A DNA stretch of 24,414 nt, from positions 1-24,414 of the IMG/VR virus record IMGVR_UViG_3300032046_000215; one strand, given 5' to 3'. A program made the translations under genes and the position numbers. Of this stretch, positions 3,701 through 12,537 are shown one piece after another (the first letter of the stretch is position 1; every line of letters begins with the position of its first letter). The notes below the pieces were generated by a model. It searched no databases. It saw only the letters and a list, made by a program, of their open reading frames with translations, and was not told the origin of the DNA. The stretch comes from a virus.

Positions 3701-3782
3701 AATTAAACAGCTATTAAGGCGCATAAGAACCCTAAAATCAATGCTATTCGCTAAACTTAGGGGGATTGTATGCAAGAATTAG
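3690..3782 (+). CDS. 30-residue basic peptide (tentative)
   Basis: The reading frame starts at the ATG at 3690 with AGGAG about 8 bases upstream, overlaps the previous gene's end and overlaps the next gene's start by 13 bases. The product is very basic (KYKIKQLLRRIRTLKSML). It fits the packed overlapping style of the operon, but could equally be a leader that couples translation of the gene at 3770. Confidence 0.35.
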   Translation: MKYKIKQLLRRIRTLKSMLFAKLRGIVCKN

Positions 3783-4252
3783 ATATTGTTGATAGAAATA
3801 TCATTAAAAGCATTGATCTTGAAATTGGCAAGCTAAAACTAGGTCAGAATTTTGACAAAGATAATTGCTTTAAGCAATTTACTAGAATAACCAAAATAAA
3901 TTATGCAAAGCATGGCAAATATGCGTCAGATAATTTTCGACTAACCAAGCTTGGCTTTGTCAGAAAAAACAGAAGTTCAAAAGAATTTCGTCAGGGTCAA
4001 GTTGAACTAAGTGATTTTAGAAAAAGTTATTTAGATAAATTAAATCGTTTTCTTGCAATTTTAAACGAAGTGTCGGACTTTTCAAGTATTGGATTATTGA
4101 AAGTTTGCAAAGAAAGAAATTTGAGAATCCACAATCATTCAGATTTGACTAGACACATTGGCGACTTGTCAGATCTAGGAGCCGTTAAAATTACTTCCGT
4201 TGGTAATTCACCAAGAAAATTGGAGATCCTTAAAAAAAGCTTGATTAATTAG
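3770..4252 (+). CDS. Hypothetical protein, possible winged-helix
   Basis: The protein has 160 residues, with a strong AGGGGGA ribosome site ending 3 bases before the ATG. It is basic. The C-terminal half (SDFSSIGLLKVCKERNLRIHNHSDLTRHIGDLSDLGAVKI in outline) has a helix-helix-turn-helix pattern followed by a strand-like end, compatible with a winged-helix DNA-binding domain, but this is only a secondary-structure impression. It is the last gene before the first large RNA, and the RNA's promoter lies over its final codons. Confidence 0.75.
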   Translation: MQELDIVDRNIIKSIDLEIGKLKLGQNFDKDNCFKQFTRITKINYAKHGKYASDNFRLTKLGFVRKNRSSKEFRQGQVELSDFRKSYLDKLNRFLAILNEVSDFSSIGLLKVCKERNLRIHNHSDLTRHIGDLSDLGAVKITSVGNSPRKLEILKKSLIN

Positions 4253-4268
4253 AGCGAAAGTTTATTAT
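4241..4268 (+). promoter_or_regulatory. Promoter for the first large structured RNA
   Basis: TTGATT (4241-4246), 16 bases, TATTAT (4263-4268). It overlaps the end of the preceding gene and would start transcription near 4275, just upstream of the outermost helix of the structured RNA. It is a 4/6 and 5/6 match, so moderate. Confidence 0.5.
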
Positions 4269-4274
4269 TAAGTC

Positions 4275-4880
4275 AATCAGACAAGTATTGAGGGTTCTCG
4301 GTTCTTGATCTGGGACTAGAGCGGTTGCAAAAGTAATTAAGCGTTGCAACTGTATCTAGTACCTCCGCAAGTTATTCTAGACAATGACTTGCGGGGTTTG
4401 TATATTTTCTTTGCTTTTCTATACATATCTAAAAAACATGTATAGAGAAGGGCGAGGGAAGTGTAGAGGGCAAGTTTTAGCGGGGATTCCATCGGTTTCT
4501 TCGTGATGTGCTTTAAGATTAAAATCTTTTAGCGGGGCTAAGACAAATCGGACTAAGGGGCTGGCAAGTCTCCTGCCGTGAGGCGAAAGCCAATAAAATC
4601 TTGCCAAACTAGCTAGAAATAGCGGGAAAGCTGAAAAATTAGGTTTTCTTAAATTCCGAAAGGACATGAACCGCACGCAAAGGCGGGGACTAATAGTGCC
4701 TCCGGACGACTCCGAAAGGATCGCACCAGCGGGGGACAAAAGAATAGTCGGTGGCGGAAGGACTTTAAACTACCTCTTTGACAGCTTGTAAGTTAGACAG
4801 GCTATATTGATTGAAAGTAATCTAAGCGATTAGACGCTGAAATTCGGGTAGTTTCTAATTTAGGCGCTCGATCAATTAAA
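4275..4880 (+). ncRNA. Large ornate structured RNA, GOLLD/ROOL-like candidate
   Basis: There is no credible gene in about 640 bases, and the GC is higher than in flanking genes. Helices seen by eye: 4305-4310/4870-4875 closing the whole; 4315-4319/4356-4360 enclosing 4324-4330/4344-4350; 4365-4372/4387-4394; a 13-bp hairpin 4414-4426/4438-4450; 4562-4568/4600-4606; 4622-4625/4671-4674; 4688-4692/4745-4749; 4767-4774/4847-4854; 4825-4828/4835-4838. GNRA tetraloops close short stems at 4582-4591, 4612-4623, 4655-4664 and 4711-4720. Size, phage setting and GNRA-rich multi-helix build match the giant phage RNAs GOLLD and ROOL, whose role is unknown and which form large RNA assemblies. I cannot assign it to either without a covariance model. 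TTTTAGCGGGG occurs twice inside it. Confidence 0.7.
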
Positions 4881-4897
4881 AATAAAATAAATAAAAA

Positions 4898-5131
4898 ATG
4901 AAAGAAAAAACTATTGGTGAATTTAGAGTTAGAACCGAGTTTAATCCTTCTCAAGAAGGGATTGTTGACCATATCAAACAAAAAACAGCGGCTATTATTA
5001 ATTTAGTTTCTGAAATAAGATATGAGGGAGAAGGAAAGCCTGCTGCAAATGAAAGAATAAGATTAGTTGCGCTAGCTCTAACTAAATACGAAGAAGCGGC
5101 AATGTTTGCAGTTAAAGCGGCTACATTATAA
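4898..5131 (+). CDS. Putative Acb2/Tad1-type cyclic-nucleotide sponge
   Basis: The protein has 77 residues built as a helical hairpin: helix one after FNPSQEGIVDHIKQ (about residues 15-42) and helix two NERIRLVALALTKYEEAAMF (about 51-70), ending AVKAAT. The ALTKYEEAAM.AVKAAT-type second helix and NPS-x-x-x-VD start recall the hairpin domain family of phage Acb2 and Tad1. Those proteins sequester cyclic oligonucleotides or gcADPR signals and so block CBASS or Thoeris defence. No other domain is present, and the length fits Acb2. It starts 18-22 bases after the structured RNA and is probably co-transcribed with it. Assignment is by motif recall. Confidence 0.6.
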   Translation: MKEKTIGEFRVRTEFNPSQEGIVDHIKQKTAAIINLVSEIRYEGEGKPAANERIRLVALALTKYEEAAMFAVKAATL

Positions 5132-5146
5132 TTCAAAAATAGATTT

Positions 5147-5322
5147 ATCAAAAAATACAAATTGGTATATCAAGCAGAAGTTACAGTTGAAGTGGAAGCT
5201 TGTAATTGTTTTCTCTGTCTGCAATTAATAAAGCTCAAAAAGAAACTTTAAAGATTGGTAGAGAAAACAAAATATTTCTTGCCCCAACTAATGAGAAATT
5301 TGAATTAACTGAAGTAGAATAA
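5147..5322 (+). pseudogene. Broken small gene (lost start and frameshift)
   Basis: One frame reads KKYKLVYQAEVTVEVEA from about 5150, with no ATG, GTG or TTG at its head (ATC at 5147 where ATG would fit). The continuation SLSAINKAQKETLKIGREN to the stop at 5320-5322 lies in a frame offset by one base, the switch falling near 5205-5215. Together they read like one small beta-then-helix phage protein of about 58 residues. Either the gene decayed, or there is an indel in the assembly. Programmed frameshifting seems unlikely because no slippery run is present. Confidence 0.5.
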
Positions 5323-5471
5323 GTCAGCACGGCTTTTGGTGAGTGCATAAATGCCAGCTTGAACAAGACAAAGAGCTTTATGTATGAAGCTTGAAAGAGG
5401 TTTGCAATACTTGTGAGTGTTTTAACTGGCATTATAATCATTTCTAACAATTGCAAAAAAATACATAGTTA
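5323..5471 (+). other. Gene-free segment with a closed RNA-like fold
   Basis: No gene is seen. AATGCCAG (5350-5357) pairs with CTGGCATT (5426-5433), enclosing about 68 bases that contain further short complementary pairs such as AGCTT (5356-5360) with AAGCT and a CTTG/CAAG hairpin. A weak terminator-like hairpin follows. It may be a small RNA or a leader; I cannot name it. Confidence 0.35.
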
Positions 5472-5496
5472 GCCTTCTGTAAAAAGGCAATTTTCT
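5472..5496 (+). terminator. Weak intrinsic terminator candidate
   Basis: GCCTT (5472-5476) pairs with AAGGC (5484-5488), followed by AATTTTCTCTT. The stem is only 5 bp and the T-run is interrupted, so termination may be partial. It would end the transcript carrying the structured RNA and the sponge-like gene. Confidence 0.4.
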
Positions 5497-5553
5497 CTTG
5501 ATTCTTAGAAATAGGGGTTGAAAGTGTTAGAGTAATTTAATGTTAAACATGCA

Positions 5554-5739
5554 ATGAATCAAAATCAGCTAGAAGAATTAATAAATGAAGAGACTAAGCG
5601 ACTGGTTGGCTATATTATGCCAGTACTTGAATCTATGCAAGCAGATGTTAATCAAAAAACATCGGTAAAAAAGATGCTTTATTCTTTCAAGAATAATATC
5701 TGTGAAATGTTAATTAATGAAAAATCAAACAATCAGTAA
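5554..5739 (+). CDS. Small helical hypothetical protein before the origin
   Basis: The protein has 61 residues and is predicted all-helical (NQLEELINEETKRLV.. and MQADVNQKTSVKKMLYSFKN). No family is recognised and no clear ribosome site is seen. It lies directly upstream of the iteron array and could belong to the replication module, but that is only position. Confidence 0.5.
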   Translation: MNQNQLEELINEETKRLVGYIMPVLESMQADVNQKTSVKKMLYSFKNNICEMLINEKSNNQ

Positions 5740-5882
5740 AATCAATACTATAAATGCACTTGCATTGCACTTGCATTGCACTTGCATTGCACTTGCATTA
5801 GTTTTGCATATGCTAAACATAGTTTATTGTTTATAGTTTATAGTTTTATTAATTTATATATTAACTTTTATTCTATATAAAC
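5740..5882. other. Probable replication origin region
   Basis: An array of 11-bp direct repeats (5755-5809) is followed by a strongly AT-rich tract (5810-5880) containing GTTTATA repeats, immediately upstream of a replication initiator-like gene and a DnaB-like helicase. Iterons plus an adjacent easily melted tract beside the initiator gene is the classical layout of theta-type phage and plasmid origins. No perfect DnaA box is seen. The tract probably also holds the promoter of the initiator gene. Confidence 0.65.
5755..5809 (+). repeat. Iteron array, 11-bp unit TGCACTTGCAT
   Basis: Four perfect head-to-tail copies of TGCACTTGCAT lie at 5755-5765, 5766-5776, 5777-5787 and 5788-5798. A fifth, diverged unit (TAGTTTTGCAT, 5799-5809) keeps the TTGCAT half. 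With the preceding A each unit contains the dyad ATGCA-CT-TGCAT, so a dimeric protein could bind each one. The 11-bp period puts all copies on the same face of the helix. Confidence 0.85.
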
Positions 5883-6527
5883 ATGAAAGATAAAATTTAT
5901 TACTTCCAAGAAAAGTCAAACGATATATTAGACCTTCAAGACGAATTTACTCCAGAAGAGATTGGAATCTATTTTATTCTGAAAGCTGCTTACTTTAAAT
6001 ATTCTGGTGAACTGAAAGAAGATAATCTATGCCAACGCTGCAAATTCTTTGGAGATAAAGATAAACTTGTCGCTGTTTCTAAAAAGATTTTTACAGTAAC
6101 GGAAGGTTCACTGGTTAATAATTCTTGGCTATCAGAGATTAATAACATAAAAGAAAGATCTAAAAAAAGACAAGATGCAGCAAATGAGAGATGGAATCCA
6201 AGCAAACCAGAAGCAAGCGGCAAGCAAACCAGAAGCAAACCAGAAGCAATTGATGATACAAAATCTCAATTTGAATCTTTCTGGAATCTTTACGATAAAA
6301 AGAAAAGCAGACCAGATGCTGAAAAGAAATTCAAAGCAGCTCTAAAGAAAGATAGTTTCGAGAATATCATCGCTGGTCTTGAAAAATATGTCATGGCAAG
6401 AAGTCCTGATTCACAGTATTGGAAGAATCCTAGCACTTGGCTAAATCAAGAATGCTGGAAAGATGATTACTCAACTCCAAAAACTGAATCCACTTCTTTT
6501 AACTCAAGCCAATGGAGTAAATACTAA
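5883..6527 (+). CDS. Phage replication initiator (lambda O / DUF1376-like role)
   Basis: The protein has 214 residues. The N-terminal part (YYFQEKSNDILDLQDEFTPEEIGIYFIL..) follows the pattern of phage DUF1376/YdaU-type domains (winged-helix-like, DNA-binding). A basic linker (residues about 85-125, SKKRQDAANERWNPSKPEAS) follows. The C-terminal part has FESFWNLYDKKKSRPDAEKKF ... YWKNPSTWLNQECW, typical of phage replication proteins that load the helicase. It sits between the iterons and the helicase, and its stop overlaps the helicase start (TAATG), the usual initiator-helicase pair. It probably binds the iterons and recruits the helicase (inference). Confidence 0.75.
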   Translation: MKDKIYYFQEKSNDILDLQDEFTPEEIGIYFILKAAYFKYSGELKEDNLCQRCKFFGDKDKLVAVSKKIFTVTEGSLVNNSWLSEINNIKERSKKRQDAANERWNPSKPEASGKQTRSKPEAIDDTKSQFESFWNLYDKKKSRPDAEKKFKAALKKDSFENIIAGLEKYVMARSPDSQYWKNPSTWLNQECWKDDYSTPKTESTSFNSSQWSKY

Positions 6528-7822
6528 TGCACTATAACTTTGAAGCTGAACAAAACCTACTTGCTTATATCATCATGGATAATGACTGGTTATTGATAAC
6601 TGGAGCAGAGGAAGAAGATTTTTTGGAAGTAAACCACAAAAAGATTTTCGCTTATTTGAATAATTGTATTAAGAATAATGCACCCGCTAACAGAATAAGT
6701 CTTGTTTCTTTTTTTGAAAGTTTAAATCTAAAAGGTTACATTGCTGAACTTTTGAATAATCAGAAAACCATAATAGGAGCTTTGGAAAGCCTTAAAATTT
6801 TACGAGAGTTAAGGTTTAAAAGAGAATTAGAAGACATTACACTTGATACCAAGGAAATGCTTTCTGATGCTTCTAAAAACAGCCAAGAAATTAAAGATAT
6901 AATATCTGAAAGGTTGGAGGCTATCTCAATAAAAACTCAAAATCAATCAATTTCTCTCGGTAAAGCGGCTAAGGAAGCCTTTTCAAAAGAAAAAGTTATA
7001 TCTGTTTCTTCTGGCTATCAATCAATTGATGAAATTATTAATGGTTTTGACTTAGGAGATTTAGTTGTGATTGCTGGTCGTCCAGCTATGGGGAAAAGCT
7101 GTTTAGTTGCTAATATGGCTTTGAGATTAGCTAAGAAAGGAAATCCAATTTTGTTTATTTCTTTGGAAATGAAAGCAGATCAAATTTCAAAACGAATGAT
7201 CGCAAGTCTTGCTTCAATTCACTTAACTAAATTGAAAAATAATAATTTGACTTCTCAATATGAAGTTGAGGCTTTCCAAAAAGCTATGACAATTGCCGAT
7301 TCTTTACCAATAACAATTGAGGATAGCGGAAGCCTAACATTGCCAAAACTTCGCTATCAGATCAAAAAGTTTGTAAATAAAACTAAAGGGAAGGTAGTTA
7401 TAATTGATTATATCCAGCTAATTAAGCACAAAGGCAAAGGTCAAAGGGTTGATGATGTTACTGAAATCACCAATACTTTGAAAGATTTAGCAATGGAATT
7501 TAATATTGTTATCATTGGATTGTCGCAGCTTTCAAGAGCAGTTGAATCGAGAGATGATAAAAGACCAATTCTTTCTGATTTAAGAGAATCAGGTTCTATT
7601 GAGCAAGATGCAAGTGTGGTAATGTTTACTTTCAGACCTGAATATTATCTTGAGAGACAAAAGCCAGATGATCCTGTAAAGTTAAGACAATGGGAAGCTG
7701 AAATGCAGAGGCTAAAAGGTGTGGCTTATGTAATGGTTGCAAAAGTCCGTGATGGTAAATGCGGCGATGCTAAGTTGCACTTTGAAGGCGAGTTTCAAAG
7801 GTTTTCTGAAAACAATTTTTAA
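6527..7822 (+). CDS. Replicative DNA helicase, DnaB family
   Basis: The protein has 431 residues, near the usual DnaB length. An N-terminal helical domain (1-110; starts FEAEQNLLAYII) is followed by a linker helix and a RecA-like ATPase core: Walker A GRPAMGKS at 184-191, the FISLEM segment near 210, Walker B VVIIDYIQLI with Asp294, GLSQLSRAVESR, and the LRESGSIEQDA sensor/arginine-finger region. It unwinds DNA ahead of the fork as a hexameric ring. Its start overlaps the initiator stop by one base. Near-complete motif set; confident. Confidence 0.95.
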   Translation: MHYNFEAEQNLLAYIIMDNDWLLITGAEEEDFLEVNHKKIFAYLNNCIKNNAPANRISLVSFFESLNLKGYIAELLNNQKTIIGALESLKILRELRFKRELEDITLDTKEMLSDASKNSQEIKDIISERLEAISIKTQNQSISLGKAAKEAFSKEKVISVSSGYQSIDEIINGFDLGDLVVIAGRPAMGKSCLVANMALRLAKKGNPILFISLEMKADQISKRMIASLASIHLTKLKNNNLTSQYEVEAFQKAMTIADSLPITIEDSGSLTLPKLRYQIKKFVNKTKGKVVIIDYIQLIKHKGKGQRVDDVTEITNTLKDLAMEFNIVIIGLSQLSRAVESRDDKRPILSDLRESGSIEQDASVVMFTFRPEYYLERQKPDDPVKLRQWEAEMQRLKGVAYVMVAKVRDGKCGDAKLHFEGEFQRFSENNF

Positions 7823-10574: not shown

Positions 10575-11294
10575 ATGACAGAAAAATTAAATAACATTAA
10601 TGAGATTCTTAATTCACTTCAAAAGGATCTTAAAGCTCCAAAAGATAAAATAAATAACTTTGGCAAGTTCCAGTATAGAAATGCGGAAGGGATTTTAGAG
10701 GCTTACAAAGAAGAAGTTAAAAAAGAAACTTATCCTAATGATTTAGTTTTAACTCATTCATTTAAAATTGATTTAATCGGGAGCAGAATATTTGCCATTT
10801 GCACCTCTACATTAGAAACATCTTGCGCTAAAAAAGAAGCGGTTGGCTTTGCTGAAATTGATGTAAGTAAAAAAGGCATGGATCAATCACAACTTTCTGG
10901 CGCGGTTACAAGTTATGCTAAAAAATATGCGCTTTGTAATTTGTTTGCAATTGATGATTCAAAAGACGATCCAGACGCAGATGAAAAGCCTAAGGAAGTT
11001 AAAAAAGAACCAATCAAGAACGCTTCTGGTCTTAAAGTTGGCACTGCTTTAACTGATGGCAGCGCAATGAAAGAAGCGCAAGCAGCGGAGAATAAAAGGC
11101 AATTTGCAAGGATTAAGGATTTAATAGAGAGTGTTGGATCTATTGCTGAATTAGAAGGAGTATGGTTTGATAATACAAAGCAAATCAATTCTATTAAGAA
11201 ATATCCTATACCTAAGGAAAATGAAGATGATGCCGCTCTTTTTGATTTACTTGTAGAAGCTAAAGATACTATGAAGGTTCAATTTATAGGATAA
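10575..11294 (+). CDS. ERF-family single-strand annealing recombinase
   Basis: The protein has 239 residues. The N-terminal 130 residues follow the ERF pattern: DKINNFGKFQYRNAEGILEAYK, then strand segments, then GMDQSQLSGAVTSYAKKYALCNLFAIDDS-KDDPDAD, the most conserved ERF stretch. ERF proteins anneal complementary single strands and serve phage recombination and circularisation. A charged linker and a separate helical C-terminal region (residues 165-239) follow; the C-terminus may bind SSB or other partners. An SSB gene and a RusA resolvase lie downstream in the same block. Confident. Confidence 0.9.
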   Translation: MTEKLNNINEILNSLQKDLKAPKDKINNFGKFQYRNAEGILEAYKEEVKKETYPNDLVLTHSFKIDLIGSRIFAICTSTLETSCAKKEAVGFAEIDVSKKGMDQSQLSGAVTSYAKKYALCNLFAIDDSKDDPDADEKPKEVKKEPIKNASGLKVGTALTDGSAMKEAQAAENKRQFARIKDLIESVGSIAELEGVWFDNTKQINSIKKYPIPKENEDDAALFDLLVEAKDTMKVQFIG

Positions 11295-11819: not shown

Positions 11820-11996
11820 ATGAAAATACTATTTATGGCAATATGGAAATTTAAATGGGTGTTTTTTTTCTTTGGAATGTTTCTATGGTTAGATGAGAAT
11901 TACGACAAAACCATTTGCGCTATGTTCACAGGCTTTTCTGCATTAGAAATAAAGATTGAAAGTCTATTTATAAAATATTTTGGAGAACGGAAATGA
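11820..11996 (+). CDS. 58-residue aromatic membrane protein
   Basis: It starts with the third copy of the start cassette. Residues 2-24 are hydrophobic and aromatic (FKWVFFFFGMFLWL), followed by a soluble part with a second amphipathic helix. Probably an inner-membrane protein. It overlaps the next start by 4 bases (ATGA at 11993-11996). Function unknown. Confidence 0.6.
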   Translation: MKILFMAIWKFKWVFFFFGMFLWLDENYDKTICAMFTGFSALEIKIESLFIKYFGERK

Positions 11997-12109
11997 AAGT
12001 TAAAGAACTAATAGCAAAACTACAAGAGTACGATAATGATCCATCCTTCTGGCGAGGAATATTTCTAAGTTATTTTATAACTGATGTAATATTGGATATT
12101 CTAAAATGA
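11993..12109 (+). CDS. 38-residue phage peptide, possibly truncated
   Basis: The N-terminus (MKVKELIAKLQEYDNDP) is the typical beginning of small phage proteins that normally run to 60-90 residues, but here it is followed by a hydrophobic tail (FWRGIFLSYFITDVILDIL) and ends early. It overlaps its neighbours by 4 bases on both sides. It may be a truncated or fused version of that family. Confidence 0.5.
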   Translation: MKVKELIAKLQEYDNDPSFWRGIFLSYFITDVILDILK

Positions 12110-12537
12110 AACTACTCTTCAACTTCCAAACCACAGACGATTTAGGAGATAAACAAGCGCAGGTAAGTAGACTAATGCGTGAATATCTTGCGGCAAAAAA
12201 AGATTTTTCTGTTGAGTTTAAGGAAGAAAAGAACCCTAAGTCTCAAGCCAGCTTAAATGGTTTTTGGCGTTTATGTACTTTACTTGTGCCACATGTACGC
12301 AAGAGCTATGGTGAAGTGTTTGACAAAGACTTAGTTAGTGATTTAGCTAAGATTAGCGCAGGTTATTGTGTTAAAACAAAGACAGGTAACTTGCCAAAGA
12401 GTTTAAAGACAATTAGTCAAGAGGATATGAACACCTTGATTGAAAAACTTTATTTTATGTGTGAGTTTTATGGGCTAAAGGATTATGAGTTAGTGCCGTA
12501 TGAGTTACAAGAGATTAATAATTATTTCAAGGAGTAA
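12106..12537 (+). CDS. NinB-like recombination protein
   Basis: The protein has 143 residues, close to NinB length. It has KNPKSQASLNGFWRLC (corresponding to the family's R-x-x-x-QNA-x-H start of the domain), a central VFDKDLVSDLAKISAGYC segment, and SQEDMNTLIEKLYFMCEFYGL, like the C-terminal NinB helix. In lambda-like phages NinB (Orf) binds single strands and SSB and aids annealing recombination. The location between ERF and SSB genes supports it. Some NinB landmarks are weak, hence moderate confidence. Confidence 0.55.
   Translation: MKLLFNFQTTDDLGDKQAQVSRLMREYLAAKKDFSVEFKEEKNPKSQASLNGFWRLCTLLVPHVRKSYGEVFDKDLVSDLAKISAGYCVKTKTGNLPKSLKTISQEDMNTLIEKLYFMCEFYGLKDYELVPYELQEINNYFKE

Follow-up and report, generated by a model that had tools for sequence, protein, structure and literature searches.

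A mosaic structured RNA upstream of the replication operon in freshwater phages

To our knowledge, the known large RNAs of bacteria and phages (GOLLD, ROOL, OLE) have one conserved architecture each, and we know of no described RNA family in which the same blocks recur in the same order in differing selections. Antisense RNAs of the P1 C4 type are grouped with the CI RNA of phage P4; an antisense switch of the CI type is processed, acts in trans and brings about premature termination and lysogenic immunity. GOLLD is a giant phage RNA of aquatic sources, including lakes; tRNAs lie near or inside it, and its 3′ part is better conserved than its variable 5′ part (PMC12286853). In phage P4, CI RNA pairs with seqA upstream and seqC downstream, shutting off the replication genes (PMC4825925).

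The stretch of DNA analysed here (the window, 24,414 nucleotides) is a 24.4 kb viral contig with a GC content of 0.33 that encodes a replication initiator, a DnaB helicase, an Erf-type annealing protein, a DNA methyltransferase and baseplate-like proteins. Among cultured phages, the nearest DnaB is only 34% identical (Xenohaliotis phage). We find an RNA island from 4275 to about 5526, split by a 77-aa gene (4898-5131), with a GC content of 0.44 versus 0.325 outside the island. Complete reading frames flank it on both sides (3770-4252 and 5554-5739). The original prediction had bounded the RNA at 4241-4880, and these limits have to be redrawn: there is a sharp module edge at 4453, and the island resumes after the 77-aa gene. 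The structured RNA is real and new in architecture, and it belongs to freshwater phages as a mosaic structured RNA. The features of the window are as follows.

4241-4268, + strand: candidate sigma70-type promoter (TTGATT-16 nt-TATTAT), 9 of 12 consensus matches, weak alone
4277-4313, + strand: 5′ hairpin (CAGACAAG ... CTTGATCTG), a predicted fold with counterparts read in L036, L037 and L040
4315-4396, + strand: module X, stem ACTAGA/TCTAGT and hairpin CCGCAAG..CTTGCGG, in 6 islands (automatic map), with compensatory changes
4406-4453, + strand: module A, long hairpin CTTTTCTATACA..TGTATAGAGAAG, in 15 islands, z = −5.8
4454-4546, + strand: module N, TTTTAGCGGGG .. GCGGGGCTAAGAC, 99-100% in L032/L043, divergent in L037/L046/L050
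4548-4606, + strand: module B2, TCGGACTAAGGGGCTGGCAAG .. GAGGCGAAAGCC .. CTTGCCA, 98-100% identity in 5 islands
4611-4666, + strand: module C, AGCTAGAAATAGCGGGAAAGC .. TCCGAAAGGA, in 6 islands, containing the supposed group I P element
4671-4689, + strand: module D, CCGCACGCAAAGGCGGGG, in 7 islands, containing the supposed Q element and part of R
4694-4738, + strand: module E, AGTGCCTCCG..CCGAAAGG..CGGGGGACA, in 11 islands, with a possible pseudoknot GTG/CAC
4739-4808, + strand: linker, no copy recognised in other islands
4809-4869, + strand: module M, GATTGAAAGTAATC .. GATTAGACGCTGAAA .. TTTAGGCGCTC, in 5 islands
4898-5131, + strand: gene for a 77-aa protein of the Acb2/Tad1 hairpin-domain family (Pfam PF24729, 38.5 bits, cut-off 27; phrog_717)
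5322-5465, + strand: module F2, beginning with a small pseudoknot (AGTCA GCA CGGCT..TGC), 83% identical to G012
5468-5488, + strand: module K, GTTAGCCTTCTGTAAAAAGGC, in 7 islands, with H always next
5496-5526, + strand: module H, TCTTGATTCTTAGAAATAGGGGTTGA, serving as 3′ landmark and present in 19 of 20 islands, in part because of selection
5554-5739: 61-aa open reading frame between the island and the replication initiator
5883-6527, + strand: replication initiator, first gene of the operon downstream of the RNA
6527-7822, + strand: DnaB helicase, second gene of that operon
10575-11294: Erf-type annealing protein

Protein-guided and exact-pattern scans of IMG/VR provided about 20 further contigs, and pattern scans of viral contigs revealed 19 related islands. 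Together with the window island (L032, 4236-5570) these form the set L032 to L051 (n = 20); because the search patterns came from modules A, E, H and I, those modules are over-counted. Annotated phages and plasmids contained no island homologues, with substantial matches only to an HNH-like gene of L043, and GTDB genomes contained no exact match to two module patterns. Across the set we denote 27 recurrent segments as modules (A, B1, B2, C ... Z), named by hand ahead of automatic mapping. Most are 20-130 bases long; they either fold by themselves or have ends that pair, and their copies are roughly 80-100% identical.

The window carries these modules in the order X, A, N, B2, C, D, E, (linker), M, [77-aa gene], F2, K, H. 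The string of modules is distinct in 19 of the 20 islands, and order is constant in 168 of the 180 module pairs that co-occur at least twice (within-island order shuffles: mean 54, maximum 78 constant pairs). The closest relatives part from the window abruptly: collinearity with G002 ends at 4453, where G002 jumps to module D, and in G003 B1 replaces N, with C and D absent. Module D is followed by L, O, E or a tRNA-like unit, depending on the phage. Many pairs of phages that share modules have no other DNA in common in the fetched stretches; the window and G018, for example, share 207 nt at 90% identity inside the island and none outside it. The modules thus pass from phage to phage, or persist, independently of the remaining DNA, with their relative order kept.

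Over 4260-4900 the + strand has a minimum free energy (MFE) of −207.8 kcal/mol (z = −5.9, 20 dinucleotide shuffles), and the minus strand is weaker (−151.5 kcal/mol, z = −4.1). The segment 4275-4400 reaches z = −8.4; modules B2, N and M do not outperform shuffles when folded singly. MFE is lower on the + than on the minus strand in each of the 19 islands tested. The 19 islands contain 55 GNRA hairpins with stems of at least 4 bp versus 7.0 in mononucleotide shuffles (maximum 14), and the window part contains 3 versus 0.4 in shuffles. Many helices and several GNRA (GAAA) hairpins are present, as proposed for 4241-4880, within a stretch whose fold is far more stable than its shuffles. The proposed outer helix (4305-4310/4870-4875, TTGATC/GATCAA) did not survive comparison: both of its sides pair locally in predicted folds, and G002 and G003 share the 5′ side and lack the GATCAA partner. 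The structured RNA is not one closed domain.

The stretch had also been described as free of genes. Frame conservation was looked for across the relatives, and no conserved protein reading frame was found in the compared islands, as the modules are joined in differing frames. The RNA at 4257-4440 is 99% identical to L003/L004 and the adjacent gene 92%. A good tRNA lies inside the island of L049 (55 bits) and a weaker one inside that of L033 (30 bits), and further islands contain tRNA-like 3′ halves with a CCA end. In its relaxed mode, which makes many false calls, ARAGORN reads one tRNA-like unit with a CCA end (L043:414-565) as tRNA-Val(TAC) carrying 58 inserted nt at position 34. A second copy of this unit adjoins module K at a separate place in its record (G009:C1:23878-24043, L052).

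The original prediction named homologue collection and covariation as its check; related islands were obtained, and compensatory changes support the folds. With structures fitted to the alignments, the modules that show such changes are A, C, E, F, H, I, M, N, R, S, V, X and Z; examples are 3 pairs with double changes in N and a G-C to A-T change at the outer pair of module E in L040. The small pseudoknot (window copy within 5322-5465) consists of a 5-bp stem whose 3-nt loop pairs 9 nt downstream. Across 14 sequences, 96.4% of its cells are paired and 5 of 8 pairs have changed on both sides, with a covariation score of 0.673 versus 0.315 for shuffled and at most 0.115 for slid partners. When each structure is predicted from just one sequence, 39 of 49 double-changed cells (80%) are still standard pairs, compared with 6-18 of 16-30 (23-60%) for slid partners. 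With the window copy as reference, 28 of 44 double changes are paired versus 4-16 of 26-37 slid, a noisy result because module A of the window is atypical (its 3′ side is unlike that of the relatives and lacks GCGCAGAAATGCG) and M was folded wrongly. Medoid references are cleaner, and the outcome is unchanged without module A. Some modules vary little, so that their folds rest on energy alone.

In records with readable downstream genes, the island closely precedes a replication initiator, which belongs to one of several types, and DnaB usually comes next, sometimes with a small open reading frame or another gene in between. Strong folding, covariation, mosaicism that keeps module order and this position upstream of the initiator are all established at the level of sequence. 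The claim of a promoter just upstream holds in part: a sigma70-like site is present at 4241-4268, but such sites show only a modest excess over chance in the window. TTGACT/TTGACA sites are similarly placed before some other islands (e.g., L037, L040 and L049), and a simple scan found no promoter-like site before several.

Many relatives have a hairpin as the final element ahead of the start codon, and the loop of this hairpin is complementary to one copy upstream and one downstream. In L016, for instance, the hairpin GGTCTGCGGTAGTCCCCTGTCGCAGATC is flanked by an upstream copy AGGGGAC and a downstream copy beside the ATG (AAGGGGACAGTATG). A scan identified this layout in L006, L011, L015, L016, L019, L020, L024 and L029; inspection by eye or alignments added L028, L031 and others. 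At least six loop/copy sets keep both complementarities (GTGCGG, GTGCAG, GTAGGG, AGGGGAC, GGTTCGG and GTTCGGG). As the background of the scan in AT-rich DNA is not negligible (189 clusters in 361 kb), we place weight on three features: the position is fixed, the words are rich in G and C, and all three segments change in parallel. The window has module H and no 3′ switch element.

The layout in the relatives resembles that of P4 CI RNA, with an upstream copy, a hairpin with a complementary loop, a downstream copy and a replication gene, and with specificity that varies by phage. It differs in that the downstream copy lies at the start codon, the sequence is unrelated, no integrase was found and the window is without the element. 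We found no tyrosine or serine recombinase or integrase in 21 fragmentary records; P4-style lysogenic immunity is therefore unsupported and we do not claim it.

We infer the function of the island RNA from sequence. The island would be transcribed from its own promoter as the untranslated leader of the replication operon. This leader, which may be processed into separate RNAs, would control the timing and amount of initiator made. In the relatives, the loop of the 3′ hairpin may pair with either the upstream copy or the copy at the initiator start codon, acting as a base-pairing switch on the following gene. The window would have lost this last element and kept the upstream modules and module H; because it has no 3′ switch, a switch mechanism for the window is an extrapolation from the relatives. 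Modules would be exchanged by recombination between colinear islands, and the window encodes an Erf-type annealing protein (10575-11294). We rate at about even chance the full reading of 4275-5526, as a large non-coding structured phage RNA of a new module-assembled class that would serve as own-promoter leader or regulatory RNA of the replication operon.

The original prediction offered two options, a divergent GOLLD or ROOL and a giant RNA family that would be new. Across the whole window, all Rfam families stay below their gathering scores. The covariance model of GOLLD (RF02032) has no match in the window (E ≤ 10) or the 20 islands (E ≤ 3), nor has that of ROOL (RF03087) in either set; searches of genome records with both were silent, as they also were in control genomes, which makes that last result weak alone. 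Rfam searches of the window and its 19 relatives thus give no support to a divergent member of either family, and the homologues, the covariation, and a size and tRNA association like those of giant phage RNAs favor the new family. Like GOLLD, the RNA is a giant phage RNA from an aquatic source, has tRNAs near or inside it and is variable in its 5′ part and more conserved in its 3′ part, but it has no sequence or structure match to GOLLD, its variable part consists of combinatorial modules common to phages, and it precedes a replication operon. With ROOL it shares a length of about 600 nt, a phage genome, many pseudoknots and the vicinity of tRNA islands, but there is no match, and ROOL has a fixed fold whereas almost all parts of the island are optional. 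As in phage tRNA arrays, tRNA-Cys and other tRNA-like units occur inside some islands; unlike in such arrays, most modules are not tRNAs.

Matches in 4241-4880 at E ≤ 10 (mir-1892, SNORA40 and the like, and a weak GP20-a) fall far below gathering scores, and the eukaryotic microRNA and snoRNA matches were rejected as biologically implausible chance matches to which the long hairpin of module A gave rise. We also dropped a hammerhead-like CTGATGA in module Q, which has no matching GAAA core.

The 77-aa gene inside the window island belongs to a family of cyclic-nucleotide sponges with anti-CBASS and anti-Thoeris activity. A single-sequence search of its protein found no PDB match. The gene lies within the island in the window phage only; in G004 its homologue is about 10 kb from the island, so the sponge gene behaves as a separate cassette. 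Homologues of the protein occur in two isolate-derived records (L008 and L009), in which an RNA query from L043 had no match.

The window contains strings resembling the P, Q, R and S elements of group I introns, in order, and a degenerate group I intron would explain them. These strings lie in three separate modules (C, D and E) and in the linker that follows E, and the R-like string GGGGACTA is completed only at the D-E junction, which is directly joined only in the window; the resemblance is an accident of module juxtaposition. The group I model (RF00028) has no match in 21 records, with three control genomes matched, and there is neither a P3 nor an interrupted gene, the reading frames on both sides being complete. 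We find an intron barely credible. Alternatively, the RNA could stand alone and act in trans as a giant RNA scaffold or cage, like the homo-oligomeric cages of GOLLD and ROOL, possibly enclosing tRNAs, its neighborhood of replication genes being incidental. Sizes of about 0.3-1.2 kb, many helices and pseudoknots, GNRA loops, embedded tRNAs and the phage setting are what such an RNA would have. We nevertheless consider a cage somewhat unlikely, as the GOLLD and ROOL models find nothing, the islands lie beside replication genes wherever these are readable, and one fixed symmetric assembly is hard to fit to an RNA in which nearly all modules are optional (19 distinct strings in 20 islands).

The anti-defence gene ties the locus to the arms race between phage and host, and its presence together with tRNA-like units and fast module turnover leads us to keep a counter-defence role among the candidates. 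Modules and tRNA-like units would then be decoys that tie up, or shapes that evade, RNA sensors and tRNA-cutting nucleases of the host, with turnover reflecting the arms race. One CBASS cyclase does sense a structured phage RNA (PMC10686824). We judge this role unlikely, since the gene is in the island in one phage and far from it in G004, and we saw no direct link of any module to a defence protein. The interspersion of modules with small genes (43-80 aa) and an HNH-like gene, and the ability of single DNA strands to fold, would also suit selfish or neutral palindromic DNA and cassette debris in a permissive gap, or DNA-level origin structures, with no RNA function. Such a reading is quite improbable: module order is conserved far above chance, and the + strand folds better in every tested island and is enriched in GNRA loops. 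The folds also tolerate G-U changes, tRNAs occur in the islands, and conservation of the RNA exceeds that of the neighboring gene. We thus prefer the leader of the replication operon. A bolder reading, less likely than not, is a combinatorial class of phage non-coding RNA with no universal core, in which recombination would insert and remove folded modules (pseudoknots, GNRA hairpins and tRNA-like units) at set relative positions. Every phage would then own a distinct RNA, diversified because its modules are recognised by factors of the host or of competing phages, or defend against them. An RNA locus with interchangeable folded parts in a kept order would show that structured RNAs can evolve by module shuffling, as multidomain proteins do. 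It would also supply about 27 short RNA modules, each a subject for work on structure and function through its natural variants, and, in the relatives, a testable base-pairing switch ahead of phage replication genes.

Further elements occur within and around the islands. The HNH-like gene lies within the G012 island (L043:1324-1764); it has no Pfam match at 0.01, and the HNH label comes from the annotation of its DNA matches in phages. A possible GIY-YIG-like gene, recognised by eye, is located just after the G017 island (L026). Small cassette genes between RNA modules (L045:220-558 and L047:641-775) encode an acidic protein of 43-44 aa, at different places in two phages, and a 64-aa protein with a weak match to the DnaJ CXXCXGXG motif, below the Pfam cut-off. 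Upstream of the islands of L028 (near 11851-12330) and L031 (near 4180-4480), an extra structured or tRNA-like stretch is followed by a hairpin resembling an intrinsic terminator (GCCGCTCC..GGGCGGCTTTTTT). Short CAGCAACTC-type repeats occur on the minus strand of L011 (~1980-2070), within a DNA methyltransferase-like gene just upstream of the island. In the window, a short tandem repeat of TTGCATTGCAC-like units at 5755-5800, in the gap between island and initiator, is a possible iteron-like element.
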